Part shown: in pieces, positions 10,405 to 24,506 of the stretch
Layout: every line of letters begins with the position of its first letter
Numbering within the stretch: position 1 is the first letter of the stretch
From: Rhodobacter sp. 24-YEA-8
GTDB lineage: Bacteria > Pseudomonadota > Alphaproteobacteria > Rhodobacterales > Rhodobacteraceae
DNA length: 64,000 bases
Direction of reading: 5' to 3'
Assembly: GCF_900105075.1 (NCBI RefSeq)
Contig: NZ_FNSK01000001.1
Coordinates: forward strand, 3,135,001-3,199,000
The notes under the pieces: model-generated
Seen by the model: the letters and a program-made list of their open reading frames with translations, nothing else
What the model was told of the DNA's origin: nothing
Database searches by the model: none
Position numbers and translations under genes: made by a program

Positions 10405-12474
10405 TCAGCGCAAAGCCGCTTCGATATTGCCGCCATCCACCGTCATCACATGCGCGGTGGTGCGGGCCGACGCCGCCAGCGCGGTGAAGGCCTGCGCAAC
10501 ATGGCCCGCCTCGACCTCGCGGCCCAGCAGGTTGCCGCCCATATAGCTCGCCTCATCAAGACCACGCGCGGCGGAGCGCGCCGCGATCATCTCGCCGGTC
10601 AGAAGGCCCGACCGGATGCGGTCGGCATTGATCCCGTTCACGCGGATGCCCTCGGCCCCGAGTTCCAGCGCGAGCTGGCGCAGAAGGAAGAAGGTCGTTG
10701 CCTTGGGCAACCCATAAGCGCCGAAATTCCTGCCCGGGTTCACCGCCTGTTTCGAGACATTGATCAGGATCTGCCCGGCATCGCCCGCGCCGCGTGTGCC
10801 GCGCGCGGCGGTCTGGGCGCGGAACACCGCGACGGCGGCCTGGGCAAAGGCCTGATGCGCAAAGAAATTCAGCTCGAAACTCTGGCGCAGCGTGTCGTCG
10901 GGCAGGGTCGCAATCTCGCCTGTGATCGCGGCACCTGCATTTGACACCAGGATATCGAGCCCGCCGAAGCGTGCCACGCAGGCCTCGACCGCGACCTCTG
11001 CCGCGCCTTTCGCGGTGATGTCACAGCTGATGCCGCCATGATCGCGGCCAAGCGCCTTCAGGGCGGCGTCAAGCAGCGCCTCGTCGCGGTCGACAAGGAA
11101 GATCGCCGCGCCTTCCGCCGCGAAAGCCCGCGCGGTGGCAAGACCAATCGCCCCCGCGCCGCCGGTGACCAGCACCACCTTGCCCTGAAAGCGCGGCGGC
11201 TTGCCCTTACCGAGCTTGGCCTGTTCCAGCGACCAGTATGCCATCTCGAAAAGGTCACGCTCGCCGATCGGATAGAACCCGCCAAGCCGCTCGCCATCCG
11301 CCATCACGCGGGTGGTCTGGCTGCCGATATCGCCGGCAATCCGCGCCGCTGCGGCAGTGGCGCCGATACCGACGACGCCTTCACCTTCGATCCATGCAAG
11401 GCCGGGCATCGGCGAGAGCATGGTCTTCGGTGTTGCGGCAAGCGGCGCCTGACGGTCGAAATAGCCCGCGTAATCTGCAGCGAAATCGGTCACCGCCTGG
11501 CGCAGCGCCTCTGGCCCGCCTGCGAGGATCTCACGGGTGATCACCAGCGGATGGCCCTTGGTGCGGATCACGTGATCCGGGGTCGCCACACCGCGTTTCG
11601 CAAGCGTGGCCAGGTCGTCGCGCAGAGTAAAGGCGCGGGCCGCATCATCGGCGCGCAGGTCAAGGACCGGCAGGCCTGCCGCCTCGGGCAGGCAAGAGGC
11701 CAGCGCGCCGCGCAGCGATGCCAGCGTCTGCGCCAGTTGCGGCGGCGGCAAAGCGGCGCCCGGATAGACCGGGCCGGGGCGGCGCTGCGCGAGCCATGCC
11801 TCGACCTCGTTCGTATGCGAGATCAGCCGGTCGTAAGAGGCTTTCGCTCCTGGCCCCCAGGTGAAATGGCCGTGATTGATCAGCAAAAGCCCTTCGGCCT
11901 CGGGATTGCGGTCATAGGCATCTGCCGCTGCTTTCGCGAGCGCAAAGCCCGGCATGATATAGGGCAGAAGCGTCAGCCGGTCGCCGAAGATCTCGCGCGT
12001 GGCGGCTTCGACCTCGGGCAGGTTCGCCAGCGTCAGGAAGGCGGTTGCATGGGTGTGATCGACATATTTATGCGGGATCCAGGCGTGGAGCAGCGTTTCG
12101 ACCGACGGATTGGGGCCGGTGCTGTCCAGAAGATTGGCGCGCTGGACATCGACCATCGCTTCGTCCGACAGCGCAGCCAGTCCGCGCAGCCGTGCAAGGG
12201 GCGCCATGCGCACAGCGGGCAGACCTGCGGCCAGGATGGTCTCCAGATCCCAGCCCGAGCCCTTCACATGCAGCACATCAACCGTGTCGCCGTAAACATC
12301 GACGGCCTGCGCCTTCATCGAAGTATTGCCGCCGCCATGCATCACCATATCCGGGTCGCGCCCGATGATGCGCGAGGAATAGACTCGGAGCGCGAGTTCC
12401 CGCGCCGCCGCGTCAGACCCCGCCGCCTCCTGCAATGCCTGCGCCTCGGTCTCATTCCAGAGATTCGTTCTCAT
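10405..12474 (-). CDS. Bifunctional class II aldolase / short-chain dehydrogenase (RhaD-like fusion)
   Basis: A 689-residue fusion. The N-terminal ~400 residues form a class II (Zn) aldolase domain: the phosphate-binding stretch HGGGNTSMK, the metal-ligand HTH in YVDHTHATAF, and a third His in NHGHFTWGPG. The C-terminal ~260 residues are an NAD(P) short-chain dehydrogenase: VTGGAGAIGLA, VSNAGAA and YGLPKAT for the Tyr/Lys pair. In the family it splits rhamnulose-1-phosphate to DHAP and lactaldehyde and processes the aldehyde. Here there is no rhamnose gene; methylthioribose kinase and isomerase share its operator. Splitting 5-methylthioribulose-1-phosphate to DHAP plus methylthioacetaldehyde is therefore the likely role (inference). 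The start at 12474 is preceded by GGGAGGG. Confidence 0.8.
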   Translation of the reverse strand: MRTNLWNETEAQALQEAAGSDAAARELALRVYSSRIIGRDPDMVMHGGGNTSMKAQAVDVYGDTVDVLHVKGSGWDLETILAAGLPAVRMAPLARLRGLAALSDEAMVDVQRANLLDSTGPNPSVETLLHAWIPHKYVDHTHATAFLTLANLPEVEAATREIFGDRLTLLPYIMPGFALAKAAADAYDRNPEAEGLLLINHGHFTWGPGAKASYDRLISHTNEVEAWLAQRRPGPVYPGAALPPPQLAQTLASLRGALASCLPEAAGLPVLDLRADDAARAFTLRDDLATLAKRGVATPDHVIRTKGHPLVITREILAGGPEALRQAVTDFAADYAGYFDRQAPLAATPKTMLSPMPGLAWIEGEGVVGIGATAAAARIAGDIGSQTTRVMADGERLGGFYPIGERDLFEMAYWSLEQAKLGKGKPPRFQGKVVLVTGGAGAIGLATARAFAAEGAAIFLVDRDEALLDAALKALGRDHGGISCDITAKGAAEVAVEACVARFGGLDILVSNAGAAITGEIATLPDDTLRQSFELNFFAHQAFAQAAVAVFRAQTAARGTRGAGDAGQILINVSKQAVNPGRNFGAYGLPKATTFFLLRQLALELGAEGIRVNGINADRIRSGLLTGEMIAARSAARGLDEASYMGGNLLGREVEAGHVAQAFTALAASARTTAHVMTVDGGNIEAALR

Positions 12475-12550
12475 TTGCACCCTCCCCGGTGGATCCCTAA
12501 AAGCAGCCTGTCCAAAGGCAATTGCACGATCATCCGGCATTGTCTACAAA

Positions 12551-12574
12551 TGTCAAATATAGCTGTCAAACGTT
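12551..12574. promoter_or_regulatory. Putative SorC-family operator between aldolase fusion and regulator
   Basis: Two direct copies of TGTCAAA start at 12551 and 12564, 13 bp apart. The second, TGTCAAACGTT (12564-12574), is identical over 11 bp to the left half of the palindrome at 16091-16108. It lies in the divergent promoter region and almost touches the regulator start, consistent with autoregulation. Binding is inference. Confidence 0.6.
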
Positions 12575-12588
12575 GAATGAGGCCAGAG

Positions 12589-13563
12589 GTGAACAACACA
12601 GCCAGGCGGCGCACAATCGGCCAGGTCAGCGGCGAGAATGCCGTGATCGAGGTTGCCTGGCTCTATTATCACGAGGGGCTGAACCAGAAGGATATTGCTG
12701 AAACGCTGGGGATTTCGCGCGCGACAGTGGTGAATTACCTGCAGGAGGCGCGCGAGCGCGAACTGATCCGCATCACCCTGGCGGCGCCTGCTTTCACCAC
12801 GCATCGGCTGGCTTCGGATCTCTGCCGCCGCTTCGGGCTGAAAGCGGCCTATGTGGTGCCCGATGAGGGCGCGAGCGTCGAGGACGCCTTTCGCCGGGTG
12901 GTGAAGGGCGCGGCGCTCTGGTTGCCGGATCTGCTGGCGCCGGGCGACAATCTGGGCGTGGCCTGGGGGCGCACCGTCTATGATCTCGCCGAGGCGCTGG
13001 AGATCACCCGCACCGAAGAGATGACGGTGTTGCAACTGGTCGGTTCTATGGCCACGCCTTACGGCTTTACCGCCGAGGCCTGCTCGACCCGGCTGGCGCA
13101 AAGGCTGGGGGCGCGCTGCCTCAACCTCCATGCGCCCGCGATCCTGTCCAGCGCCGATCTCGCCCGCGCGCTGCGGGCCGAGCCGATCCTGCGGGTACAG
13201 CTCGATGAAATTGAAAAGCTGAACAAGCTCCTGTTCTCGGTCGGCACCGCCAGCGAGGACAGCCATATCGTGTCGAGCGGCCTCGCCACGACTGAGGACC
13301 TGGCGCATTACACCGGCAATGGTGCGGTGGGGGTGATCTGCGGGCGGTTCGTCGATGCGGCAGGTCGCGCGATCCCTGGCCCGATGGAAGACCGCATGAT
13401 CGGCATCCCGCTTGAACGCCTGACCGGGCTTGAAATGGGCATCCTGGTGACGCCGGGCCATGACAAGGTTGAGGCCACCATGGCCGCGATCCGGGGCGGC
13501 TATGCCACCCATCTCGTCACCGGCCTTACCGTGGCCGAGGCTTTGCTGGCGCAGGATCTGTAA
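12589..13563 (+). CDS. SorC/DeoR-family sugar-binding transcriptional regulator
   Basis: About 324 residues. The N-terminal helix-turn-helix, in KDIAETLGISRATVVNYLQEA, is followed by a sugar-phosphate-sensing domain of the SorC/LsrR/CggR type (LGVAWGRTVYDLA, LVGSMATPYGF, VGVICGRFVDAAG, VTPGHDKVEA). Such proteins are released from or activated on DNA by a phosphorylated sugar. The GTG at 12589 is preferred because GAGG lies 6 bp before it; an ATG at 12577 has no ribosome site and abuts the operator. It is divergent from the aldolase fusion. The same operator core before the transporter/RuBisCO-like operon makes it the probable regulator of the whole 10.4-22.9 kb cluster. The inducer may be a methylthioribose-derived phosphate (inference). 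Confidence 0.87.
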   Translation: MNNTARRRTIGQVSGENAVIEVAWLYYHEGLNQKDIAETLGISRATVVNYLQEARERELIRITLAAPAFTTHRLASDLCRRFGLKAAYVVPDEGASVEDAFRRVVKGAALWLPDLLAPGDNLGVAWGRTVYDLAEALEITRTEEMTVLQLVGSMATPYGFTAEACSTRLAQRLGARCLNLHAPAILSSADLARALRAEPILRVQLDEIEKLNKLLFSVGTASEDSHIVSSGLATTEDLAHYTGNGAVGVICGRFVDAAGRAIPGPMEDRMIGIPLERLTGLEMGILVTPGHDKVEATMAAIRGGYATHLVTGLTVAEALLAQDL

Positions 13564-13584
13564 CCCCCCGCGCCAGCCTCATTT

Positions 13585-14691
13585 TCAGCGTTTCAGCGCG
13601 GCGGATTTCAGATCGCCGAACATTGCCTCCATCGCGGCCGCATCGGCGGCGACCACGCCGCGCTCGGTGATCAGGCCCGTCACGAGCGCCGCCGGTGTCA
13701 CGTCAAAGGCCGGATTGCGGCCGCCGGTGCCATCAGGGCTGATCTGCACCTGGATGATCCTGCCCGAGGCGTCCTTGCCCTGAACATGGGTGACCTCGGT
13801 ATCGGAACGCTCTTCGATCGGAATCTCTTTCACGCCGTCGACCACCGTCCAGTCGATGGTCGGCGAAGGCAGGGCCACATAAAACGGCACCCCATTGGCC
13901 TTTGCGGCCAGCGCTTTCAGATAGGTGCCGATCTTGTTGCAGACATCGCCCTGTGCCGTGGTGCGGTCGGTGCCGACGATCACCAGATCGACCTCGCCAT
14001 GCTGCATCAGATGGCCACCGGCATTGTCGACGATCAGATCATGGCTGACGCCTGCCGAGTTCAGCTCCCATGCGGTCAGCTGTGCGCCCTGGTTGCGGGG
14101 GCGGGTCTCATCGACAAAAACATGCACCGGAATGCCGGCCTCGACCGCGTGATAGATCGGCGAGGTTGCGGTGCCCCAGTCGACCGTTGCGGGCCAGCCC
14201 GCGTTGCAATGGGTCAGGATATTGACGGTCTGCCCCGGTTTCCTGGCTGCGATCTCGCGGATCAGCGCGAGGCCGTGTTCGCCGATGCGGCGGTTGATTT
14301 CGACATCTTCATCGGCGATCTCATCGGCGCGTTTCGCCGCCGCCGCCGCGCGTTCCCCGGCAGGCAGCGGGCGCAACACGCGGTCCATCTCATCCAACGC
14401 CCAACGCAGGTTGATCGCTGTGGGCCGCGTTTCATGCAGCACTTCCCAGGTCTCGGTGAGCGACGCGTCCGAAGGGTCGCGCGCCATCTGATCGGCCACG
14501 CCATAAGCCGCCGTGGCCCCGATCAGCGGGGCGCCACGCACCCACATATCGCGGATCGCGACGGCATATTCGTCGCGCGTGCTCAGCGGCACGATGCGCA
14601 ATTCATGCGGCAGCCAGCGCTGGTCGATGATCATCACCTGACCTGACGCCTCGCGCCAGATGGAGCGGTAGGGTTTGCCATTGATCTTCAC
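13585..14691 (-). CDS. mtnA: S-methyl-5-thioribose-1-phosphate isomerase
   Basis: A 368-residue member of the MtnA / eIF2B-alpha-like isomerase family. It converts 5-methylthioribose-1-phosphate to 5-methylthioribulose-1-phosphate. Catalytic residues are present: C162 in THCNAGW and D242 in [11 protein letters not shown], with NKIGTY following. The substrate-binding [16 protein letters not shown] is near residue 49. The GTG start overlaps the mtnK stop by 4 bp, so the two are co-translated. It is convergent with the SorC regulator. A 5-deoxyribose-phosphate isomerase function, as in 5-deoxyribose salvage, is a real alternative, since those enzymes are close paralogues. Confidence 0.9.
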
Positions 14692-15965
14692 AGGTGGTTC
14701 TCCAGGCTGATGCGCCGTGCGAGGTCAAGCACGGCAGGAATTCCGGTAAGGCCATTGCGGCCATGGATCAGTGCGGTGCCAAGCGCGAGGGCACGGGCCT
14801 CGCAGCCGGCGCGGGTGGGTGCATCGCTGATGCGTTCGAAATCGGCGTTATGGGCAAGACCAAGGATGCGGCGATGCATCTCGACCCCGCAGAAGCCAAG
14901 CGCATCGCGCCAGATCATGCCAAGCCGTTCCGCCCGCGCGATCTCGCCGGCGAGGCCGTGGCCCTGATCCTCATACAGCGTTGCCTGATAGAGGATGCCG
15001 GTGCGTTCCTCGCGCCAGAGCCGGGTGAATTCGGCTTCGAACGAGGTCCAGACCGCGGCGGTGACCGACAGCAGCCAGTCCTGGTAGCCGGCCCGCGCGC
15101 CCGCGCTGGTCTCGTGGCCGGGCTGCGACATATAGGCCATCAGAAAGTTGGAAATCAGCATGCCGACGTCAAAGCCGATCGGGCCATAAGTGGCGAATTC
15201 CGGATCAATCACACGGATATCGTCATCAGACACCATGATGGATCCGGTATGGAGATCGCCGTGCAGCATGGTCTCGGCCTGCGAGGTGAAGCCCATCTTC
15301 AGATGCTGCGCGGCGACTTTCAGGGCCATATCGGCCTGGATGCGGGCAATGGCGCCTTCCAGCCCAGGTGTATGGTGGTTCAGCTTTGCGTTGAAATAGG
15401 GGTCGGAAAAGACAAGGTTTTCCGTGATGTCGCAAAGTTCGACATTGCCCGCGAACAGCGCCATATCGGCCTTTTTCGCGGCCGGGGTCATCGACAGATC
15501 CGATCCCCGGAACAGCGTGCGCGCGCAGAAATCGCCCAGCCTTTCACCAAGGCCCTTATAGCGTTTTCCTGCGATCAGCCCGTGGCGCAGGATGATATGC
15601 GGCGTCAGGAATTCCATCACGACAATGGCCTGCGCCTCGTCGAAATGCCAGACCTCCGGCACTGCGCCCGGGTCACGCGCTTCCTGGCGGATCAGCGCGT
15701 TATATTCAAAGAAGCTGCGTTTCAGCGGCAGGGGCCAGGATTCGCCCACCAGCCGCACATAGGGCAGCGCCTGTTTCACAATCGCCGCACCCGCCGCGCC
15801 GCGCAGAATGAAAACGAGGTTCAGGTTGCCATCGCCGACCTCTTCGACCTGCCAGCTGTCGGCTGGGCCGACGCGGTTGGTCAAGATGCTCAGCCCGCCC
15901 AGACGGGACGGCAATGTGCTGGGGGTCAGCGCCTCATATTGCGACGCAGTGTCTGACGGAATCAC
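14688..15965 (-). CDS. mtnK: S-methyl-5-thioribose kinase
   Basis: A 425-residue kinase of the aminoglycoside-phosphotransferase-like fold. MtnK hallmarks are seen: [17 protein letters not shown] (about residues 63-79), the catalytic loop HGDLHTGSI with D237, and the metal-binding [16 protein letters not shown] near residue 253. It phosphorylates free 5-methylthioribose at C1 with ATP. The GTG start lies behind GGAGGAG. It heads the mtnK-mtnA pair, divergent from the sugar transporter operon, and shares its operator region. No methylthioadenosine phosphorylase or nucleosidase gene is in the window, so the ribose moiety probably arrives through the transporter or from a nucleosidase encoded elsewhere. 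5-deoxyribose is an alternative substrate. Confidence 0.9.
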
Positions 15966-16090
15966 GGCTTTCTCCTCCCGCAGGTGACATGCCAGAGCTG
16001 GCCCGGCCCACCAAATCTTGCCCTCCGGAATGCGGATTCCTCCTCCCGCATCCCGGGGTTCCGGCTAAGGATTTCCATTCTTGCGGCATT

Positions 16091-16132
16091 TGTCAAACGT
16101 TATTGACATTTGAATAACCGAGACGCTAGCCT
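16091..16132 (+). promoter_or_regulatory. Palindromic operator and candidate promoter of the transporter/RuBisCO-like operon
   Basis: TGTCAAACGTTATTGACA (16091-16108) is a perfect inverted repeat, TGTCAA-N6-TTGACA. Its right arm is also a consensus -35 hexamer, with a weak -10 (TAGCCT, 16127-16132) 18 bp further on. The first 11 bases match the operator before the SorC gene. Overlap of the arm with -35 would suit repression. Confidence 0.65.
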
Positions 16133-16154
16133 CGGGTCGGGAGAGGAGACCATC

Positions 16155-17663
16155 GTGCCGCAGGACGCCATCGTTATCACGGGGCTGACCCGTTCTTTTG
16201 CGCGCAATCATGTGCTCCGGGGGGTCAATCTGACCCTGCCGGCCGGCAAAGTGACAGTGTTGATGGGGGCGAACGGGGCGGGGAAATCCACTCTGGTCAA
16301 GATCCTCTGCGGGGTGCAGCGCCGCGATACCGGCGAGATCACGCTGGATGGCCAGCCCTTTGATCCGCCCGATCCGGCCAGTGCTTTGCGCGCCGGGGTG
16401 GTGACCGTGCATCAGAACATCAATGACGGGGTGGCGCCTGATCTCGACGTGGCCTCGAACCTCCTGCTCGACGAGCTGGCGGCGGGTTCGTCATTCTTTC
16501 TCAACGGGCGTCGGATGCGCGCGGAGGCACGGCGGATTGCCGGCGCCGTGGGGCTGGATGTCGATGTCACGCGCCCGGTGCGCGAGCTGAGCCTTGCAGA
16601 CCGGCAGCTGGTTTCCATCGCGCGCGCCATGTCACATCGCCCCCGGCTGCTGATCCTGGACGAGCCGACCTCGTCACTTTCGGCGACTGAAACAGAACGG
16701 TTGTTCATTTTGATCGACCGGCTGAGGGCCGAGGGTGTGGCGATCCTTTATATCTCGCATCGCATGTCCGATATCCGTCGCCTCGCCGACCGGATTGTCT
16801 CGATGCGGGACGGGCAGATTTCCGGCCAGTTCGAGGGCGAGACCCTGGATTATGCCGGTGCGGTACGCGCCATGCTGGGTCATGAGATCACCGAAGTCGA
16901 TATCGACATTCCGCCTCAGGGCCGCGCGGTGATTGAGGCGCGTGCACTGCGGCTGCGCCCTGATGCGGTGCCGTTCGATCTGAGTCTGCATGAAAATGAG
17001 GTCGTGGCGGTCACCGGCCTTGTCGGGTCGGGGAAATCCCTGCTGGCCGAGGTGCTTTTTGGCGTCTCGCGCGCCGAGGGCGGCACGATCAGCCTGGACG
17101 GCACCCCGTATACACCGAAAAATCCGGGCGCAGCGGTGCAGGCGGGGGTGTTTCTTTCGGCGAAAGACCGGCTTTTGAATGCGGTAATCCCGGAATTCGA
17201 CATCACCCGCAATATGGTGCTGCCATTCCTGTCGCGTCATACCGGGCTGCTGGCACTGCTGCGCCCCGGGTCCGAGCGCGCCACCGCAACCAGGATGATC
17301 GGCGAGATGGGCGTCGTGTGTCAGAGCCCGAAAGACGGGATCCTCACGCTGTCGGGCGGCAATCAGCAAAAGGTTGTCGTCGCGCGCTGGCTGGCCGAGG
17401 CCTCGCGCCTTCTGATCCTTGATGAGCCCTTCCAGGGCGTCGACATCCAGGCCCGCCGCGACATCGGCCGCCATATCCGGGCCAGCGCCTCTGGCCGCGC
17501 CACCCTGGTTCTGTGTGCCGAAATCGACGAGGCGCTGGAAGTGGCCGACCGCATCCTTGTCATGAGCGAGCATTCGATCATCGGCACCCACCGCAATCAG
17601 AATATCGACCTCGGCCTGGTGATGGCGCAGGTCACCGAATCCGCCGCAGGACATGTCGCATGA
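16155..17663 (+). CDS. CUT2 sugar ABC transporter ATP-binding protein (RbsA/LsrA-like)
   Basis: A 502-residue protein with two ATPase domains. The N-terminal half has Walker A GANGAGKST and LILDEPTSSL. The C-terminal half has GLVGSGKS, the signature LSGGNQQKVVVARW and LILDEPFQGVD. The GTG at 16155 behind GGAGAGGAG is chosen; an in-frame TTG at 16110 lies inside the operator region and has no ribosome site. It is the first gene of a six-gene operon continuing through permease, binding protein, split transketolase and RuBisCO-like protein, and overlaps the permease by 4 bp. The substrate is inferred to be methylthioribose or a similar pentose because mtnK-mtnA is divergent from it. Confidence 0.88.
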   Translation: MPQDAIVITGLTRSFARNHVLRGVNLTLPAGKVTVLMGANGAGKSTLVKILCGVQRRDTGEITLDGQPFDPPDPASALRAGVVTVHQNINDGVAPDLDVASNLLLDELAAGSSFFLNGRRMRAEARRIAGAVGLDVDVTRPVRELSLADRQLVSIARAMSHRPRLLILDEPTSSLSATETERLFILIDRLRAEGVAILYISHRMSDIRRLADRIVSMRDGQISGQFEGETLDYAGAVRAMLGHEITEVDIDIPPQGRAVIEARALRLRPDAVPFDLSLHENEVVAVTGLVGSGKSLLAEVLFGVSRAEGGTISLDGTPYTPKNPGAAVQAGVFLSAKDRLLNAVIPEFDITRNMVLPFLSRHTGLLALLRPGSERATATRMIGEMGVVCQSPKDGILTLSGGNQQKVVVARWLAEASRLLILDEPFQGVDIQARRDIGRHIRASASGRATLVLCAEIDEALEVADRILVMSEHSIIGTHRNQNIDLGLVMAQVTESAAGHVA

Positions 17664-18676
17664 AAAAAGACTTCAATCTGACCGATTTCGCGATCCGCTA
17701 CGGGTTCCTGATCCTGATGGCGGGGCTGGTGATCGGCTTTTCCGTCGCGCAACCGGCCTTCCTGACCGCACGCAGCGGCGTGTTCATCCTGCAATCGGTG
17801 GCGATCACCGGCATTCTGGCGCTTGGCGTGACCGCCACGCTGGTGGTCGGGGGGTTCGATCTTTCCATCGGGGCGGTGGCGACCTCATCGCTGATGCTTT
17901 CGGCCTATACGATGGTGATCTGGGATCTCGGCGCGGTCGAGGCGGTGGTGTTCTGCCTGGCGATGGGGGCTTTCGTGGGCCTGGTCAACGGATTGCTGAT
18001 CGTCAAAATGCGGGTGCCGGATCTTCTGGCGACGCTTGGGATGATGTTCCTGCTGATGGGGTTGCAGCGTATCCCGACGGAAGGAAATTCCATCTCGACC
18101 GGCATGTCGCTGCCCGGAGGCGGCACCGCGACCGGCACATTCTCGCCCGGCTTTCTGATGCTGGGGCGGCACCGGCTCGATTTCATCCTTGACGATCTGG
18201 TGCCGCTTTCTGTGGTGTTCCTGATCGTGATCGCGTTTCTGGTCTGGGGGTTTCTCGAACTCACGCGCCATGGCCGCGTCATGTATGCGATCGGGTCGAA
18301 CGCAAAAGCGGCGAGCCTTGCCGGCATCAACGTGAATTTCTACCGCATTCTGGCCTATGTGATCTCAGGCACGCTGGCGTCTTTTGGCGGCATCCTGCTG
18401 GCGGCGCGGCTGGGGCGGGGTGATGTCGCTTCGGGCAATAATCTCTTGCTCGATGCGGTTGCCGCAGCGCTGATCGGCTTTGCCGTACTGGGCGCCGCGA
18501 AACCCAACGCCTTTGGCACCGCCATCGGCGCACTGTTTGTCGGCATCCTGTTGCAGGGGCTGACCATGCTGAACGCACCTTATTACACGCAGGATTTCAT
18601 CAAGGGCGCTGTTCTCGTTGTCGCCCTCGTCTTTACTTTCGCGCTTTCCGGTCGGGGAGGCCGGGCGCGCGGCTGA
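17660..18676 (+). CDS. CUT2 sugar ABC transporter permease (RbsC-like)
   Basis: A 338-residue inner-membrane permease with 8-10 hydrophobic segments. The CUT2 signature lies near residues 62-75 (LVVGGFDLSIGAVA), and the conserved loop ...YAIGSNAKAASLAGINV is near residue 210. The ATG at 17660 overlaps the ATPase stop as ATGA. CUT2 permeases work as homodimers, so one permease gene suffices. It is intact and of family length. Confidence 0.9.
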   Translation: MKKDFNLTDFAIRYGFLILMAGLVIGFSVAQPAFLTARSGVFILQSVAITGILALGVTATLVVGGFDLSIGAVATSSLMLSAYTMVIWDLGAVEAVVFCLAMGAFVGLVNGLLIVKMRVPDLLATLGMMFLLMGLQRIPTEGNSISTGMSLPGGGTATGTFSPGFLMLGRHRLDFILDDLVPLSVVFLIVIAFLVWGFLELTRHGRVMYAIGSNAKAASLAGINVNFYRILAYVISGTLASFGGILLAARLGRGDVASGNNLLLDAVAAALIGFAVLGAAKPNAFGTAIGALFVGILLQGLTMLNAPYYTQDFIKGAVLVVALVFTFALSGRGGRARG

Positions 18677-18709
18677 GCAAAACGGATAACAGAGAAGAGG
18701 GAGGAAACC

Positions 18710-19747
18710 ATGTTCTCAAGACGGGTGTTTGTGGGCCTGATGGGTGGTATTGCCCTGATCCCGGGCCTCGCTATCGCGCAGGATGCTCCGGCGCCATTCG
18801 ACAAGCCCGCCGATGTAAAGATCGCGCTGGTGCGCTATCTGTCGACCGGTGATTTCTTCCAGGCCTATCTTTCCGGCGTGGAAAAGCAGTCAGAGGCCCT
18901 CGGCGTCAGCCTCCAGGTCTTCGACTCGCGCCAGGATGCGGCTTTGCAGGCCGATATGGTCGATCAGGCCATCGCGCTGGGCGTTGATGGCATCATCATC
19001 CAGCACGGTCTGACCGAGTCGATGAAGGAAGCCGCGCAGCGCGCGGTCGACGCTGGCATCAAGGTTGTGGCCTTCGACGTGAATGTCGAAAATGCCGCCA
19101 TCCCGCAGGTCGAACAGTCTGACCGTGACCTCGCCCGTCTGGCGCTGGAACAGGCGATCAAGGATCAGGGCGAGACCTGGACCGCAGGTTACGTCTATGT
19201 CCCCGGCATCGCGCCGCTTGATCGCCGTGATGAGACCTGGAAAGAGTTCAAGGCGAAATATCCGGGCATCACCGAGAAAGCGATGTTCGGCACAATGGAC
19301 AACCCGATTGCCAATTCGGTCGCGAACCAGGCGCGGTCTGTCCTTTCCGCGAACCCGGATATCCAGGTTGTTTTCGCCCCCTATGACGAGTTCGCCAAGG
19401 GCGTGAAAATCGCCGTGGACGAGGCCGGCATGGGCCAGGATGTCGCGATCTATTCGGCTGACGTCTCGACCGCTGATATTGCCCTGATGCGCGAAGACGG
19501 GTCGGGCTGGAAGGCGACTGCCGCGACCAACCCCGCCGTGGTGGGTGAAGTCTCGGTGCGTACCCTCGCGCAGCTTCTTGCCGGTGAGACCGTCGCGGCC
19601 CAGGTCATCGTGCCGCCGACCCTGATCACCCAGGCCGATCTGAACGAACTCGATATCTCGAATATGGAAGAGCTGGGCGCGAAAATGCCGGCTTTCGTCC
19701 ATGCTGAAGTGTCGGTGAGCCCCTGGATGAAGCTCCCCGCACGTTGA
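18710..19747 (+). CDS. CUT2 sugar ABC transporter substrate-binding protein
   Basis: A 345-residue periplasmic binding protein, Peripla_BP type 1 fold. The signal peptide is residues 1-23 (VFVGLMGGIALIPGLAIA, cleavage after AIAQ). The mature chain begins with IALVRYLSTGDFFQAYLSGVEKQSEALG, typical of RbsB/LsrB-like proteins, and has GVDGIIIQHGL and AFDVNVENA further on. A GGAGG site precedes the ATG. A hairpin with a short T-run follows the gene, probably setting higher expression than the catabolic genes downstream. The ligand is inferred from context to be a pentose derivative. Confidence 0.88.
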   Translation: MFSRRVFVGLMGGIALIPGLAIAQDAPAPFDKPADVKIALVRYLSTGDFFQAYLSGVEKQSEALGVSLQVFDSRQDAALQADMVDQAIALGVDGIIIQHGLTESMKEAAQRAVDAGIKVVAFDVNVENAAIPQVEQSDRDLARLALEQAIKDQGETWTAGYVYVPGIAPLDRRDETWKEFKAKYPGITEKAMFGTMDNPIANSVANQARSVLSANPDIQVVFAPYDEFAKGVKIAVDEAGMGQDVAIYSADVSTADIALMREDGSGWKATAATNPAVVGEVSVRTLAQLLAGETVAAQVIVPPTLITQADLNELDISNMEELGAKMPAFVHAEVSVSPWMKLPAR

Positions 19748-19754
19748 TCTGACC

Positions 19755-19781
19755 GGGGCCGGTCTGTCCGGCCCCGATTTT
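19755..19781 (+). terminator. Attenuator-like hairpin after the binding-protein gene
   Basis: GGGGCCGG (19755-19762), a 5-nt loop, CCGGCCCC (19768-19775), then gatttt. This 8-bp GC stem plus short T-run resembles a weak intrinsic terminator. It would allow partial read-through into the transketolase and RuBisCO-like genes, which have no other obvious promoter. Confidence 0.6.
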
Positions 19782-19798
19782 CCGCGATGAGGCCACAA

Positions 19799-20728
19799 AT
19801 GCAAAACTCCCGTACCACCGAAGAGGTGGCCCATGGCATCCGCTGCCGCGTGTTCGAGCATTCGATGCGCAACAATGGCGGCTATCTGAGCCAGGCCTGT
19901 TCCGCCGCCGAGCAACTGGCGTTTCTGTATAACGAGGCGCTGAATCTCGGCCCCTCGACCATGCCGATGGTGCCGCCGCCCTTTGGCGGGGTGCCCTCGG
20001 CCGCGAACCATGATTACCGCACCGGCGCAGGCTATAACGGCCCGTTTGACGCCGTGCATGACCGGCTGTTCATCGCGCCCGCGCATTACGCATTGGTGGC
20101 TTACGCCTGCCTGATCGAGACCGGCCGTATGGCCCCCGAAGGGCTGGAGATGTTCAACCAGGATGGCTCATCCGTCGAGATGATCGGCGCCGAACATTCC
20201 CCGGGGATGGAGGTGCATAATGGCACTCTCGGCATCGGGCTTTCGACCGGCGCGGGCCTTGCCTGGGGCCGCAAGCGGCGGGGCGAGACCGGCGAGGTCT
20301 GTGTCTATATGTCGGATGGCGAGGTTCAGGAGGGGCAGACCTGGGAGGCGGTGCAGGCAGCCTCCCATCACGGCATCGACAATCTCTGGGCCCTGATGGA
20401 CGTGAACCGCCAGCAATGCGACGGCGCGATGGATTCGGTGATGACGGTGGGCGATATCGCCACCAAATTCCGCAATTTCGGCGCGGTGGTGGCCGAAGTT
20501 GATGCCCATGACCTGACGGCACTGCGTCAGGCCAAAGCCACGCCGCATGAAGGCCAGCCGCTGATCATCCTTGCCCATTCCAGCCCGACAAAAGGCATGG
20601 AATTCCTGATGAAGCGCTTCCCGCGCCTGCATTACGTGCGGTTCAAATCTGACGAGGAACGCCGCGAGATGAACATCGCCATAGCCGCAGAGCTTGGCAT
20701 TGCACCTGTCGACCTGGGAGGGCACTGA
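19799..20728 (+). CDS. Transketolase-like N-terminal (thiamine-diphosphate-binding) subunit
   Basis: About 309 residues, the N-terminal half of a split transketolase. The ThDP/Mg motif is MSDGEVQEGQTWEAVQAA followed by MDVNRQQCDG. The upstream GAEHSPGMEVHNGTLGIGLSTGAGLAW matches the transketolase pyrophosphate domain. The ATG at 19799 lies 6 bp behind GAGG; another in-frame ATG at 19787 has no ribosome site. It must pair with the next gene to make an active enzyme. Split transketolases are known both as ordinary pentose enzymes and in branched-sugar (apiose) catabolism. Here the RuBisCO-like protein and methylthioribose genes suggest an unusual keto-sugar phosphate donor. The reaction is not established. 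Confidence 0.88.
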   Translation: MQNSRTTEEVAHGIRCRVFEHSMRNNGGYLSQACSAAEQLAFLYNEALNLGPSTMPMVPPPFGGVPSAANHDYRTGAGYNGPFDAVHDRLFIAPAHYALVAYACLIETGRMAPEGLEMFNQDGSSVEMIGAEHSPGMEVHNGTLGIGLSTGAGLAWGRKRRGETGEVCVYMSDGEVQEGQTWEAVQAASHHGIDNLWALMDVNRQQCDGAMDSVMTVGDIATKFRNFGAVVAEVDAHDLTALRQAKATPHEGQPLIILAHSSPTKGMEFLMKRFPRLHYVRFKSDEERREMNIAIAAELGIAPVDLGGH

Positions 20729-20730
20729 AG

Positions 20731-21732
20731 ATGGAAATGGTGAACCGCCCCTATGCGAAGGCGTTTGAAGATTACGCCGTGCAGCACCCCGAGGTGCTGT
20801 GCCTTTCCGCCGACCTGACCTCCAGCTGCGAGATCGACGGCTTTCGTGATCGCCACCCGGACCAGTTTCTGTCGCTTGGCATGGCAGAACAGAACATGCT
20901 GTCCTTCGCCGGCGGGCTTGGCCTCGCGGGCTTCCGGCCTTTCCTGCATTCCTTCGGCGTGTTCCTTTACCGCAGGCCCTATGACCAGCTGATGGCCTCC
21001 ATCGCCTATCCGCGCCGCCAGGTGCGGCTGATGGGGTTCCTGCCCGGCATCACCACTCCGGGCGGCATGACGCATCAGGCAATCGAAGACATTTCGGTGA
21101 TGCGCACGATCCCGAACATGACCGTGCTGGAGGCCGGTGACGCGAGTGAGGTCGAGAGCATCGTCGCTGCCGCCGACAGTGTCGATGGTCCGGTTTATTG
21201 CCGCATCCTGCGCGGCGCGGTGCCGCGGCTTTTTGATACCCCGCTGGAGATCGGCAAGATCCGCGTTCTGGCAGAAGGCACCGATGTGCTGATCGTTACC
21301 GCAGGGATCACCACCGAAGAAGCGATCCGGGCAAGGGCCGCGCTGGACCGGGCGGGGGTTTCGGTGCGTCACCTGCATCTGAACACCCTGAAACCCTTTG
21401 ATGCCGCGACGATCATCGGCCATGCGGAACAGGTGAAACATGGTGTCATCACGCTGGAAAACCACCTGGTGACCGGCGGTATCGGCTCGATGGTGGCCGA
21501 GGCGCTGGCCGAGGCCGGGCTTTCGCGCCGCCTGATCCGGCTGGGGCTGCAGGACACCTATGCGCATGGCGGCTCGCGCCCCTATCTCATGTGCTATTAC
21601 GGGATGGATGCGCTGAGCCTTGTTCGCGCGGTCGAACGCCTGACCGGACAGCAGACCGGCATTGACGAAGATGCGCTTGGCGCGGTCCGGGTCGAGGCGG
21701 TGCATTCGGTGGTCAAGGCCGAGGCGCTTTGA
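20731..21732 (+). CDS. Transketolase-like C-terminal subunit
   Basis: A 333-residue pyrimidine-binding and C-terminal half of a split transketolase. The catalytic Glu that activates ThDP is in LSLGMAEQNMLSFAGGLG. The loop GITTPGGMTHQAIEDISVMRTIPNM lies where transketolases bind the donor substrate. The C-terminal domain has VIVTAGITTEEA and the ENHLVTGGIGSMVAEAL motif. A GGAGGG site precedes the ATG, two bases after the partner's stop. The stop overlaps the RuBisCO-like gene start by 4 bp, so the transketolase and RuBisCO-like protein are translationally coupled, an argument for consecutive steps. Confidence 0.88.
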   Translation: MEMVNRPYAKAFEDYAVQHPEVLCLSADLTSSCEIDGFRDRHPDQFLSLGMAEQNMLSFAGGLGLAGFRPFLHSFGVFLYRRPYDQLMASIAYPRRQVRLMGFLPGITTPGGMTHQAIEDISVMRTIPNMTVLEAGDASEVESIVAAADSVDGPVYCRILRGAVPRLFDTPLEIGKIRVLAEGTDVLIVTAGITTEEAIRARAALDRAGVSVRHLHLNTLKPFDAATIIGHAEQVKHGVITLENHLVTGGIGSMVAEALAEAGLSRRLIRLGLQDTYAHGGSRPYLMCYYGMDALSLVRAVERLTGQQTGIDEDALGAVRVEAVHSVVKAEAL

Positions 21733-22850
21733 TGCGCTTTACCGTCACCTACCGCATCCGCGCCGGTGATCTGGCCGAAGCTCGCGCCCGCGCGGATGCA
21801 ATCGCGCTGGAACAGACGGTCGAGATCCCGCGCGCGGTGGTGCCGCCGGGCTATATCGAAGACGATATCCTCGGCCGGGTTGAAGAGACCGGCACGCTGT
21901 CGGACGGCGTCTTTCAGGCGAAAATCTCTTACTCGCCCGACAGCGCCGGAGAGGAGTTCAGCCAGTTCCTGAATGTGGTTTTCGGCAATTCCTCGATCCA
22001 GCAGGGGATCCGGGTGACCGGAGTTGAGCCGGGTGAGACGATGCTGGCGCGCTTTCCAGGCCCGCGTTTCGGCATCAAAGGCATCCGGGCGCGCTGCGGT
22101 CGCGCAACAGGCGGAATGATTGCGCCGGTGCTGAAGCCGATGGGCCAGCCACCCGCGGCCTTTGCCGCGCTGGCCGCAGGCGCGGTGCGCGGTGGGGCTG
22201 ACATCATCAAGGAAGATCACGGGCTTGCGGGTCAGGATGCCGCGCCGTTCGAGGCCCGCGTCGAGGCCGTAGCGAAGGCCGTGGCCGTGGCCAATGCCGA
22301 ATATGGGCGCAATGCGATCTATATCCCGAACCTCTCTGGCCGGGCGGACCAGATCGAGGCCCGGCTGCGCTTTGCCCGGGATGCCGGAGCGGGCGGTGTC
22401 ATTGTGATGCCGGGGCTTCTGGGGTTTGGCATGGTACATCGCATCGCGCAGGATCCGGGCCTTGACCTGCCGGTGATGACGCATCCGTCTTTCCTGGGCC
22501 CCTGGGTGCTGAACCCCGATACCGGCATGGATCACGGTGTGGTCTTCGGCACGCTTCCAAGGCTTGCGGGGGCGGATATCTCGGTTTTCCCGAATGTCGG
22601 CGGGCGGTTCGGCTTCTCGGCAGCGGATTGTCTGCAAATCGCAGAGGCCTGCCGCGCGCCTGACGGGCCTGCGACGGCGATGCTGCCCAGCCCCGGTGGC
22701 GGGATGAGTGTGGAACGCGTCGCTGACATGGTGCGGATGTATGGCCAGGATGTCGTCTATCTGCTGGGCGGCAGCCTGCTGGCCGATCCGCCGAACATCC
22801 ATCTTGCTGTGGGCGCGATGCGCAAGGCGGTGGATGCGGCGGAGAGCTGA
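21729..22850 (+). CDS. RuBisCO-like protein (form IV), probable keto-pentose-phosphate isomerase or related enzyme
   Basis: A 373-residue form IV RuBisCO homologue. Conserved positions are K135 (APVLKPMGQP), K160 in GGADIIKEDHG (the lysine carbamylated in RuBisCO), D162, a His in THPSF (251), and the phosphate-binding glycines at SPGGGMSV (320-326) and LLGGSLL (344-350). The usual KDDE is KEDH, so one metal ligand is replaced. The loop-6 region reads FPNVGGRFGFSAADC instead of a catalytic loop Lys, so carboxylase activity is excluded. In Rhodospirillum rubrum a related protein isomerises 5-methylthioribulose-1-phosphate to 1-methylthioxylulose-5-phosphate. With mtnK-mtnA in the same regulon this is the best guess. 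Decarboxylase or hydrolase functions known from apionate pathways remain possible. Confidence 0.87.
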   Translation: MMRFTVTYRIRAGDLAEARARADAIALEQTVEIPRAVVPPGYIEDDILGRVEETGTLSDGVFQAKISYSPDSAGEEFSQFLNVVFGNSSIQQGIRVTGVEPGETMLARFPGPRFGIKGIRARCGRATGGMIAPVLKPMGQPPAAFAALAAGAVRGGADIIKEDHGLAGQDAAPFEARVEAVAKAVAVANAEYGRNAIYIPNLSGRADQIEARLRFARDAGAGGVIVMPGLLGFGMVHRIAQDPGLDLPVMTHPSFLGPWVLNPDTGMDHGVVFGTLPRLAGADISVFPNVGGRFGFSAADCLQIAEACRAPDGPATAMLPSPGGGMSVERVADMVRMYGQDVVYLLGGSLLADPPNIHLAVGAMRKAVDAAES

Positions 22851-22853
22851 GGC

Positions 22854-23185
22854 TCAGCCCCTGATCGTTCCGGACGAGAGGCGGCGTTCCAGCGCCTCGC
22901 CTGCCGTGTCAAACAGACTGCAGTCGGCGGCACTGAACCCGACGGTGGCCGCCTGGTCGCCGGGCAGGAAATTCATCCGCAGATTGCCGATGACCCCCGC
23001 GACGAATGTGTTTTGCGGCTTGTGATACAGGTCCTGCGGCGCACCGCCCCGGGCGATTTGGCGCCAATCTGTTTATGCAGCCGGGTGAGTTCAATCCGCA
23101 TATCGGCGCGCAGGGCGGCATCAGAATTCGAGAGCGGCGCGTCAAAGAGGAAGATTTCGGCGCCTTCGACGGAATAAGGCGTGAT
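22854..23185 (-). pseudogene. Remnant of a sugar ABC transporter ATPase (UgpC/MalK type)
   Basis: Two frames together read [33 protein letters not shown], then [29 protein letters not shown] to a stop. This is the Walker B/D-loop region joined to the start of the TOBE domain, with the switch His and linker deleted and the frame shifted. The Walker B glutamate is also lost (DAP for DEP). The N-terminal half, with Walker A and signature, is absent. Confidence 0.8.
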
Positions 23186-23383
23186 GTCCTGATAGGCCGT
23201 CAGCGCGGCGAGGACTTCGGTACTGTCCATGGTGATGCTGCCATCGGCGTCGATGATCTGGTCGTTATTGGTACAGGCTCAGTGCAGGAACTGGTGGACG
23301 GGAGTGTCAAAGGTCCTGGCGGGCAGGGCGGTGGTGCAGGCCAGCACCGCGCCGATCAGGCTGTTCCGAAAGAGGTCGGACAC
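23186..23383 (-). pseudogene. Remnant of a family 1 extracellular solute-binding protein
   Basis: A GTG start followed by VSDLFRNSLIGAVLACTTALPA looks like a Sec signal peptide. After a stop in that frame, another frame gives [28 protein letters not shown], a typical internal segment of sugar-binding proteins (GG.IVD.DGK.T.DS.E...AL..Y). The rest is deleted, and the fragment is fused directly to ATPase sequence. Not functional. Confidence 0.7.
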
Positions 23384-23409
23384 GTCACATACTCCCGGTT
23401 GTGAAGGGT

Positions 23410-23622
23410 ATTTTTTACCGCCCCGGCGGTCAGCCCGCCGACAAGGTATCTTTGCAGGAAAAGGATGATGATCATGGCTGGGGCGATGCCTAGGAAAGCG
23501 GTGGCCATCAACTCGTTCCAGAGCACATCCTGCTTGCCGAAAAAGGCATAAAGGCCAATCGGCAGAGGCATGTATTCGGTTCTGGAATTGAAGGTCAGCG
23601 CGAAGGTGAATTGCTCGTCCAT
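23410..23622 (-). pseudogene. Remnant of a sugar ABC transporter permease (MalG type)
   Basis: The stretch FTFALTFNS...PLPIGLYAFFGKQDVLWNELMATAFLGIAPAMIIILFLQRYLVGGLTAGAVK is the C-terminal part of a MalG-like permease. The frame runs past the usual end without a stop. The first ~200 residues, including most membrane segments and the EAA loop, are missing. Confidence 0.8.
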
Positions 23623-24421
23623 CGACAAATCCAGCACACCTGCCGCAGGGGTATCGAGGCGCGAGACCGGCAGGGCCACGCCTTTGGTTTCAAAGGCTGC
23701 GCAACGGCGGACCTGGTAGTCGAAGATATCACCATCGGAAACGAAGGCTTTCTCCGACCCGTTCCAGCCCGACGGTTTTTATAGAACATATCCACATCGT
23801 TGACGCCATAAATGCGCGGGCCATTTTCCGGGATAAAGGTCTTCCTGCCTCCGAAAGACGCCACCCGCTCGGGCCACGCCCGGATCAGCCCGTTGTAAAG
23901 GTCGAGATCATGGCAGCATTTCTCCTGGCGCCGCCAGTCGCGCATGAAAAGCGCGCCGTGGCAGCAGGGGTAGATATGTTCGGCCGCCTCGACCGAGACG
24001 ATATCGCCCAGAGGGTCGGCGTCACGCGCCGCCAGAGGTCGCGGTGCGACGGCGCGTAGCGCACACGGGGGCGACCGAGGGGTTCTCAGGCCAGTATCGC
24101 ACCAGCAGATGCGCCAGCGCATAAGTGTCCTCAGGTGATGAGATGATGGGTTTTTCCGAGAAGACCTGCCCCCGCTTCCAGCCCCAGCCGGATATGGTCA
24201 AGGTGGAAATGATCGGACGAGCTGATCATCGGCAGATCGAAACCGCCGGCCTTTACCAGCGCCTCGGCGCTTTCATGCGAGATGCCGGCGGGGATGCCAT
24301 GTCCGGTCAGGGTCGCCGCCCCGGCCCTGGATCTCGAAATCCGGGTCCATTTCGCGGAATACATGGGCAAGATAGCCGAGACAAAAAGCCGGGGCCGATA
24401 ATCGCACCTCGTATAATTCAC
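23623..24421 (-). pseudogene. Frameshifted Gfo/Idh/MocA-family oxidoreductase
   Basis: Pieces in different frames reconstruct a sugar dehydrogenase: GAIIGPGF (Rossmann start), AEALVKAGGFDLPMISSSDHFHLDHIRLGLEAGAGLLGKTHHLIT, then EAAEHIYPCCHGALFMRDWRRQEKCCHDLDLYNGLIRAWPERVASFGGRKTFIPENGPRIYGVNDVDMFYKN. At least three frameshifts or small deletions are needed. The 3' end runs into the permease remnant. The four remnants together were probably one carbohydrate uptake operon. Confidence 0.8.
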
Positions 24422-24506
24422 TCCCTGGGGGGATTACCTTTCTGTAACCTGGAGGGATCGCGCGATGATCCCCAATGAGTTTTCGATGGCGCAGACTGTT
24501 GCACGC

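Follow-up and report, generated by a model that had tools for sequence, protein, structure and literature searches.

What would a bacterium do with a RuBisCO-like protein (RLP) and a split transketolase encoded next to the enzymes that phosphorylate and isomerize methylthioribose? The question is raised by positions 10405-22850 of a 64,000-nucleotide stretch of Rhodobacter sp. 24-YEA-8 DNA (here called the window), where mtnK and mtnA lie divergent from a plus-strand unit coding for the ATPase, single permease and binding protein of a CUT2 sugar transporter, then for tktN and tktC, the two transketolase halves, and lastly for the RLP. On balance we lean towards reading the locus as a catabolic and salvage route whose substrates would be 5-methylthioribose (MTR) and the MTR-1-phosphate that the cell makes with its methylthioadenosine (MTA) phosphorylase, and which would run through the RLP and the split transketolase. 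The enzyme families, their linkage and the clade of the RLP are established by sequence, and the genes form a genuine, conserved set.

Among 390 genomes of Rhodobacterales (the order sample; RLP threshold E<=1e-60, with at most five candidates scored per genome, so that misses are possible), the RLP was present in 26, the TktN subfamily in 31 and both in 26. In every one of the 26 genomes with the RLP the two genes were on the same contig, 1003-1288 bp apart, and their association exceeds chance (Fisher p 7e-36 for co-occurrence, phylogeny ignored). An even class sample of 385 genomes contained the TktN subfamily (>378 bits; next best match 165.7) in 3 genomes, which were also the 3 with the best RLP matches, the genes again side by side. 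A scan of genome contigs with the RLP as query gave 23 loci, in 21 of which tktN and tktC adjoined the RLP gene; none of the 23 genomes lacked the transketolase. The apparent lack of a transketolase in the other two was rejected as an artefact of locus ends, since the Lachnospiraceae locus (L023) has it upstream on the same contig, as seen in the record L126, and the Afifellaceae locus (L024) has it about 20 kb from the RLP on the same contig (L128). The Afifellaceae RLP stands in an operon of its own with a two-permease CUT2 transporter (L024:5321-11149, plus strand). A transketolase strictly bound to the RLP was likewise rejected, as 5 of the 31 order genomes with TktN had no RLP match.

MtnA was found inside 19 of the 23 loci and in the genomes of three of the other four (L011, same contig; L024, another contig; L014, in two pieces). 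In genome G202, MtnA and TktN are fused in one open frame of 656 residues (L064:7149-9119, minus strand), with identities to the window proteins of 43.7% for the MtnA part and 50% for the TktN part. RLP, transketolase and MtnA are tied together by adjacency, by this fusion and by their reappearance in a second phylum, which bears out the grouping from which the original prediction for this DNA had set out. In alignments with the window proteins, identity was 71-94% for TktN, 72-94% for TktC and 43-78% for the RLP; conservation of the transketolase halves was on par with that of the permease and the binding protein.

The RLP scored below every NCBIfam cut-off tried. Its structural model has the RuBisCO fold (AF2 pLDDT 91.2), with 3qfw, an RLP of Rhodopseudomonas palustris, as best PDB fold match, followed by MtnW structures. 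A role as MtnW, the 2,3-diketo-5-methylthiopentyl-1-phosphate enolase, was rejected because scores were under cut-off (NF007095, 175.6 vs 409 bits; TIGR03332, 130 vs 513.6) and MtnD was not found in the genome. In a tree of 44 RLP and RuBisCO proteins, which included no named Deep-Ykr, Rhodospirillum rubrum or MtnW sequence and had some long branches, 34 rows were set off from the OiaX and RuBisCO rows by a 100/100 branch. Of these 34, 17 are of the window type and 14 form a second group, while the RLPs of L023, L064 and L065 make up the rest; the order of the three groups is unresolved. The phylogeny proposed with the original prediction thus places the RLP with cupin-linked RLPs and apart from OiaX. 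All 18 rows of our RLP alignment (A1), and six aligned cupin-type rows, carry a K-x-D-H motif; the same position is K-x-D-E in OiaX and in the MtnW-type PDB sequences 4nas and 2zvi.

A Cupin_2 protein adjoins the RLP in 13 of the 14 loci of the neighbouring group, and the 14th stops at a contig end. Because of this adjacency, which agrees with the gene order reported for R. rubrum and R. palustris, we read the group as Deep-Ykr-type, predicted methylthioribulose-1-phosphate 1,3-isomerases. In R. rubrum and R. palustris, such RLPs convert methylthioribulose-1-phosphate to 1-methylthioxylulose-5-phosphate, from which a cupin then frees methanethiol (excerpts of PMC4958253 and PMC5893883), which matches what the original prediction had stated of R. 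rubrum. No Cupin_2 match was found in the scanned loci of the transketolase type (L126-L136 included), while the Rhodobacter genome outside these loci was not searched for cupins. The transketolase thus seems to stand in the place of the RLP-linked cupin.

The transketolase halves are separate adjacent genes in which an SDG...DVN motif, which we take to be that of thiamine diphosphate (ThDP) binding, and the Glu of an AEQN motif, presumably the catalytic one, are conserved. The split transketolase has no histidines at the positions aligned to what we take to be His103 and His30 of the yeast enzyme. The genome also encodes a canonical transketolase (L088; TIGR00232, 768.2 vs cut-off 682.25) and a protein whose beginning looks DXS-like (by eye), so that TktNC would be an extra enzyme.

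The features of the locus are as follows.

10405..12540, minus strand: bifunctional class II aldolase/short-chain dehydrogenase (RhaE-like paralogue; NF006192, 822.6 bits, cut-off 639)
12577..13563, plus strand: SorC-type sugar-responsive regulator (PF04198, 192 bits)
13585..14691, minus strand: mtnA, methylthioribose-1-phosphate isomerase (TIGR00512, 418.7 bits vs curated cut-off 279)
14688..15965, minus strand: mtnK, methylthioribose kinase (TIGR01767, 469.6 bits vs cut-off 275)
16110..17663, plus strand: CUT2 sugar ABC transporter ATPase (by eye, translation probably begins at the GTG at 16155)
17660..18676, plus strand: CUT2 permease (PF02653, matched on a longer frame, 17513-18676)
18710..19747, plus strand: periplasmic sugar-binding protein, Peripla_BP_4 (PF13407, 118.8 bits)
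19787..20728, plus strand: tktN, N-terminal (thiamine diphosphate) half of the split transketolase (PF00456; closest PDB entry 6yak, a split transketolase)
20731..21732, plus strand: tktC, pyrimidine-binding/C-terminal half of the split transketolase (PF02779/PF02780; closest PDB entry 6yaj)
21729..22850, plus strand: RLP (PF00016, 58.2 bits; likely ATG start at 21732)

These profile scores confirm the gene content and order first described from the letters alone, and mtnK also matches the PDB entries 2pyw (315 bits) and 2olc (262 bits), the latter entered as a methylthioribose kinase. The coordinates given then stand as well, although the aldolase/dehydrogenase and the SorC-type regulator that lie within them had been passed over. 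Both are recurring partners of the locus: of 25 loci, 20 gave a match to the regulator, and of 23 related loci, several of which are cut at that point, 13 gave one to the aldolase/dehydrogenase at E<=1e-8 (a 30% match in L024 was excluded). The latter has a second copy in the same genome (43% identity) and keeps catalytic-looking motifs (by eye). mtnK and mtnA share 4 bp. The 4 bp overlap reported for tktC and the RLP gene holds only if translation begins at the TTG at 21729; from the ATG at 21732, likelier given its TGATG context and the 372 residues of the database copy P0001, it shrinks to 1 bp.

How these enzymes might work together can be laid out as a sequence of steps. The CUT2 transporter would import the free sugar, joined in relatives by an RbsD/FucU-family protein. 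By homology, MtnK would phosphorylate MTR to MTR-1-phosphate and MtnA would isomerize this to methylthioribulose-1-phosphate, whose carbonyl the RLP, if it acts like the published Deep-Ykr RLPs, would move to give 1-methylthio-D-xylulose-5-phosphate. The split transketolase with its ThDP might then attack C2 and cut between C2 and C3, yielding glyceraldehyde-3-phosphate and a cofactor-bound two-carbon methylthio unit; we propose this step because of the position of the genes, the MtnA-TktN fusion, the cupin that the transketolase seems to replace and the other supply seen in genomes without the RLP. The two-carbon unit would most simply undergo beta-elimination of methanethiol to leave acetyl-ThDP, a reaction for which the chemistry of phosphoketolase and of sulfoacetaldehyde acetyltransferase (Xsc) is a precedent, or could be released as methylthioacetaldehyde. 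The aldolase/dehydrogenase may serve a parallel branch of aldol cleavage, as with Ald2 beside RLP1 in R. palustris. Of the cleavage first proposed for this locus, a substrate of the xylulose-5-phosphate type fits, while the methylthio group at C1 and the fate of the two-carbon unit remain proposals.

The rest of the genome is consistent with an endogenous supply. The absence of a cupin, MtnB, MtnC, MtnD and MTA phosphorylase, noted earlier, holds at the locus (no search aimed at MtnC was made), but an MTA phosphorylase is encoded elsewhere (L081; NF006492, 499.9 vs cut-off 437). Since the genome has a single IF-2B-family match, which is mtnA of this locus, and gave no match to acireductone dioxygenase/MtnD (PF03079, 0 matches), the cell's own MTR-1-phosphate would have to pass through the window MtnA. 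Two short class II aldolases of the genome score, among matches listed at E<=1e-30, above cut-off for OxoTetrPhDc and PRK07490, which are different families.

Variant loci point to other ways of supplying the same transketolase. In L012 and L064 no MtnK was matched and a purine nucleoside phosphorylase is present, in L064 with a nucleoside transporter as well, and an RbsD/FucU-family protein, which fits import of a free aldose, occurs in nine loci of the RLP scan and in L126. On the Lachnospiraceae contig (L023, L126) an RbsD-like protein, the transketolase, DhaK/DhaL, a sugar transporter, MtnK, MtnA, the RLP and a class II aldolase are joined by a PduL-like protein, a CoA-type aldehyde dehydrogenase and two shell proteins (EutN, BMC), possibly an undescribed type of microcompartment; our literature search found no description of one.

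The five order genomes with the transketolase and no RLP match at E<=1e-60 (L132-L136) all have a bisC-family S/N-oxide reductase at most one gene from it. The reductase is also adjacent in L013 and L128 and two genes away in L012, which makes 8 of 30 transketolase loci, of which L132 and L133 are almost duplicates of each other. XylB is the best match for the kinases of L132, L134 and L136 (271.1-279.7, under the cut-off of 380.25), and the L133 kinase has the same matches as that of L132, so that a xylulokinase-like gene is present in four of the five genomes, about 8 kb off in L134; such a kinase fits a xylulose-5-phosphate-type substrate. Zn-dehydrogenases, closest in the PDB to sorbitol or L-threonine dehydrogenases, accompany these transketolases, and AraD-like proteins occur in L132, L136 and L128. 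The small aldolase of the last three loci was considered as Ald2 and set aside; it may be an epimerase, the best model being L-ribulose-5-phosphate 4-epimerase (245.7-248.9 vs cut-off 251). In a transketolase tree, four of the five RLP-less enzymes (L133 was left out) and that of L128 were interspersed among RLP-linked ones, suggesting that one and the same enzyme is probably at work and that its supply alone differs. Both supplies would end in a sugar of the xylulose-5-phosphate type, and the reductase hints at sulfur, perhaps at a sulfoxide sugar as substrate. One might go further, tentatively, and picture a thiosugar-specific transketolase family that cleaves 1-methylthio-xylulose-5-phosphate, eliminates methanethiol to acetyl-ThDP, replaces the RLP-linked cupin and is housed in a microcompartment in Lachnospiraceae. 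Its front ends would be interchangeable: either MtnK or purine phosphorylase with MtnA and the RLP, or a Zn-dehydrogenase, a xylulokinase-like kinase and an AraD-like protein with an S-oxide reductase.

Several observations weigh against a methylthio sugar, or against the order of steps set out above. The window locus itself carries no sulfur-specific gene, and a second route would call for an explanation if the aldolase already cuts the ketose phosphate in question. No MtnA match was found in the genome of L013. Loss of the two transketolase histidines was rejected as proof of a C1-modified substrate, as both are also missing in 16 of 20 control split transketolases (the 20 best other matches of the class-sample TktN scan). 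The reductase accompanies only the eight loci just counted, the four reductases tested score 834-909, under the bisC-family cut-off of 1017.6, and enzymes of this family reduce N-oxides too. No xylulokinase was found in the scanned part of L135, where the protein tested was NuoF-like. Finally, tktC matches the model of 1-deoxyxylulose-5-phosphate (DXP) synthase nearly as well (156.9 bits, cut-off 465.95) as that of transketolase (191.6), both scores being under cut-off, so that a 1-deoxy substrate would be natural too. The same enzymes could then serve 5-deoxyribose (from 5'-deoxyadenosine), the RLP making DXP and the transketolase glyceraldehyde-3-phosphate and an acetaldehyde unit, which we regard as unlikely but worth keeping in view. 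DXP is an isoprenoid precursor and could be used directly, which argues against its cleavage, as does the reductase within two genes of the transketolase where it occurs. MtnK and MtnA accept both sugars in the dihydroxyacetone phosphate (DHAP) shunt (PMC10986504, in part), whereas the published substrate of related RLPs is a methylthio sugar (PMC5893883, in part).

Less likely still, the transketolase could be an ordinary or acceptor-type enzyme, for instance one whose acceptor is a modified aldehyde from the aldolase reaction and whose transferred two-carbon ketol unit is a normal one, the RLP and transketolase being neighbours whose steps are not consecutive. Class II aldolase-type genes do recur at these loci, the split transketolases of the sulfo-TK pathway move a normal two-carbon unit (PMC11659671, as excerpted), and 5-deoxyribose can serve as a transketolase acceptor (PMC8102628, likewise). 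The canonical transketolase in the genome, the tight RLP-TktN spacing in 26 of 26 genomes and the xylulokinase-like genes of RLP-less relatives, which point to the donor side, argue against it. That the aldolase/dehydrogenase is instead the main cleavage enzyme of a DHAP-shunt cluster, with RLP and transketolase as a minor branch for sulfur recovery, appears improbable: aldolase-type genes lie near these clusters, and Ald2 and RLP1 run in parallel in R. palustris (the same excerpt of PMC5893883), but the transketolase halves are better conserved than the RLP, and the aldolase differs in type between loci and was matched in 13 of 23 only, where several are cut. An apiose/apionate-type pathway with an OiaX-like RLP and an AptAB-like transketolase, the main alternative of the original prediction, is now hardly credible. 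Apiose catabolism (AptAB, OiaX) does employ a split transketolase and an RLP; it is not known to need MtnK or MtnA. The window RLP is distant from OiaX (24% identity; 73.5 bits against a cut-off of 700), and the genome has a separate OiaX-like RLP elsewhere, so the apionate role was rejected, even though an RLP does belong to apiose catabolism (PMC6302742). That separate RLP lies on another contig (L080:7996-11559), scores 683.6 against the same cut-off and has an SBD_N/NBD_C neighbour; the region is likely an apionate locus.

Salvage of MTR through the RLP and transketolase would resemble several known systems without matching any. It shares MtnA and an RLP from the cupin-linked side of the tree with the MTA-isoprenoid shunt of R. 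rubrum and R. palustris (MtnP, MtnA, Deep-Ykr RLP, cupin methylsulfurylase), along with an MTA phosphorylase in the genome and no MtnD found; unlike that shunt, the window has a split transketolase in place of an adjoining cupin, and a sugar importer and MtnK share the cluster. MtnK, MtnA and a predicted class II aldolase recall the DHAP shunt (MtnK/MtnP, MtnA, Ald2), but the window aldolase is fused to a dehydrogenase, and RLP and transketolase are added. As in the sulfo-TK pathway for sulfoquinovose (SqwGH), a split transketolase would have been recruited to a sulfur-bearing sugar; there a non-sulfonated two-carbon unit is passed to glyceraldehyde-3-phosphate (PMC11659671, as excerpted), whereas here sulfur would sit on the two-carbon unit itself. 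Universal methionine salvage has an MtnD, which was not found in this genome.

No account of an RLP-transketolase-methylthioribose route was found among titles and abstract openings, a coverage that leaves out most subscription journals, and the main texts of PMC4958253, PMC6302742 and PMC5893883 never use the word transketolase. The closest published ideas are the 5-deoxyribose acceptor and SqwGH (PMC8102628 and PMC11659671, as excerpted). The use of S-adenosylmethionine leaves methylthioribose and 5-deoxyribose as by-products, which Escherichia coli strains without the DHAP shunt excrete (PMC10986504, in part). If the proposal is true, a transketolase instead of a cupin would provide a further oxygen-independent route and a possible source of methanethiol, with a new reaction for the thiamine enzyme family and a RuBisCO relative tied to carbon catabolism.

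Downstream of the RLP gene, positions 22855-24460 of the window hold no open reading frame longer than 175 residues. In L003 and L004 the RLP is followed by ABC-transporter genes, of which this interval may be a decayed remnant.

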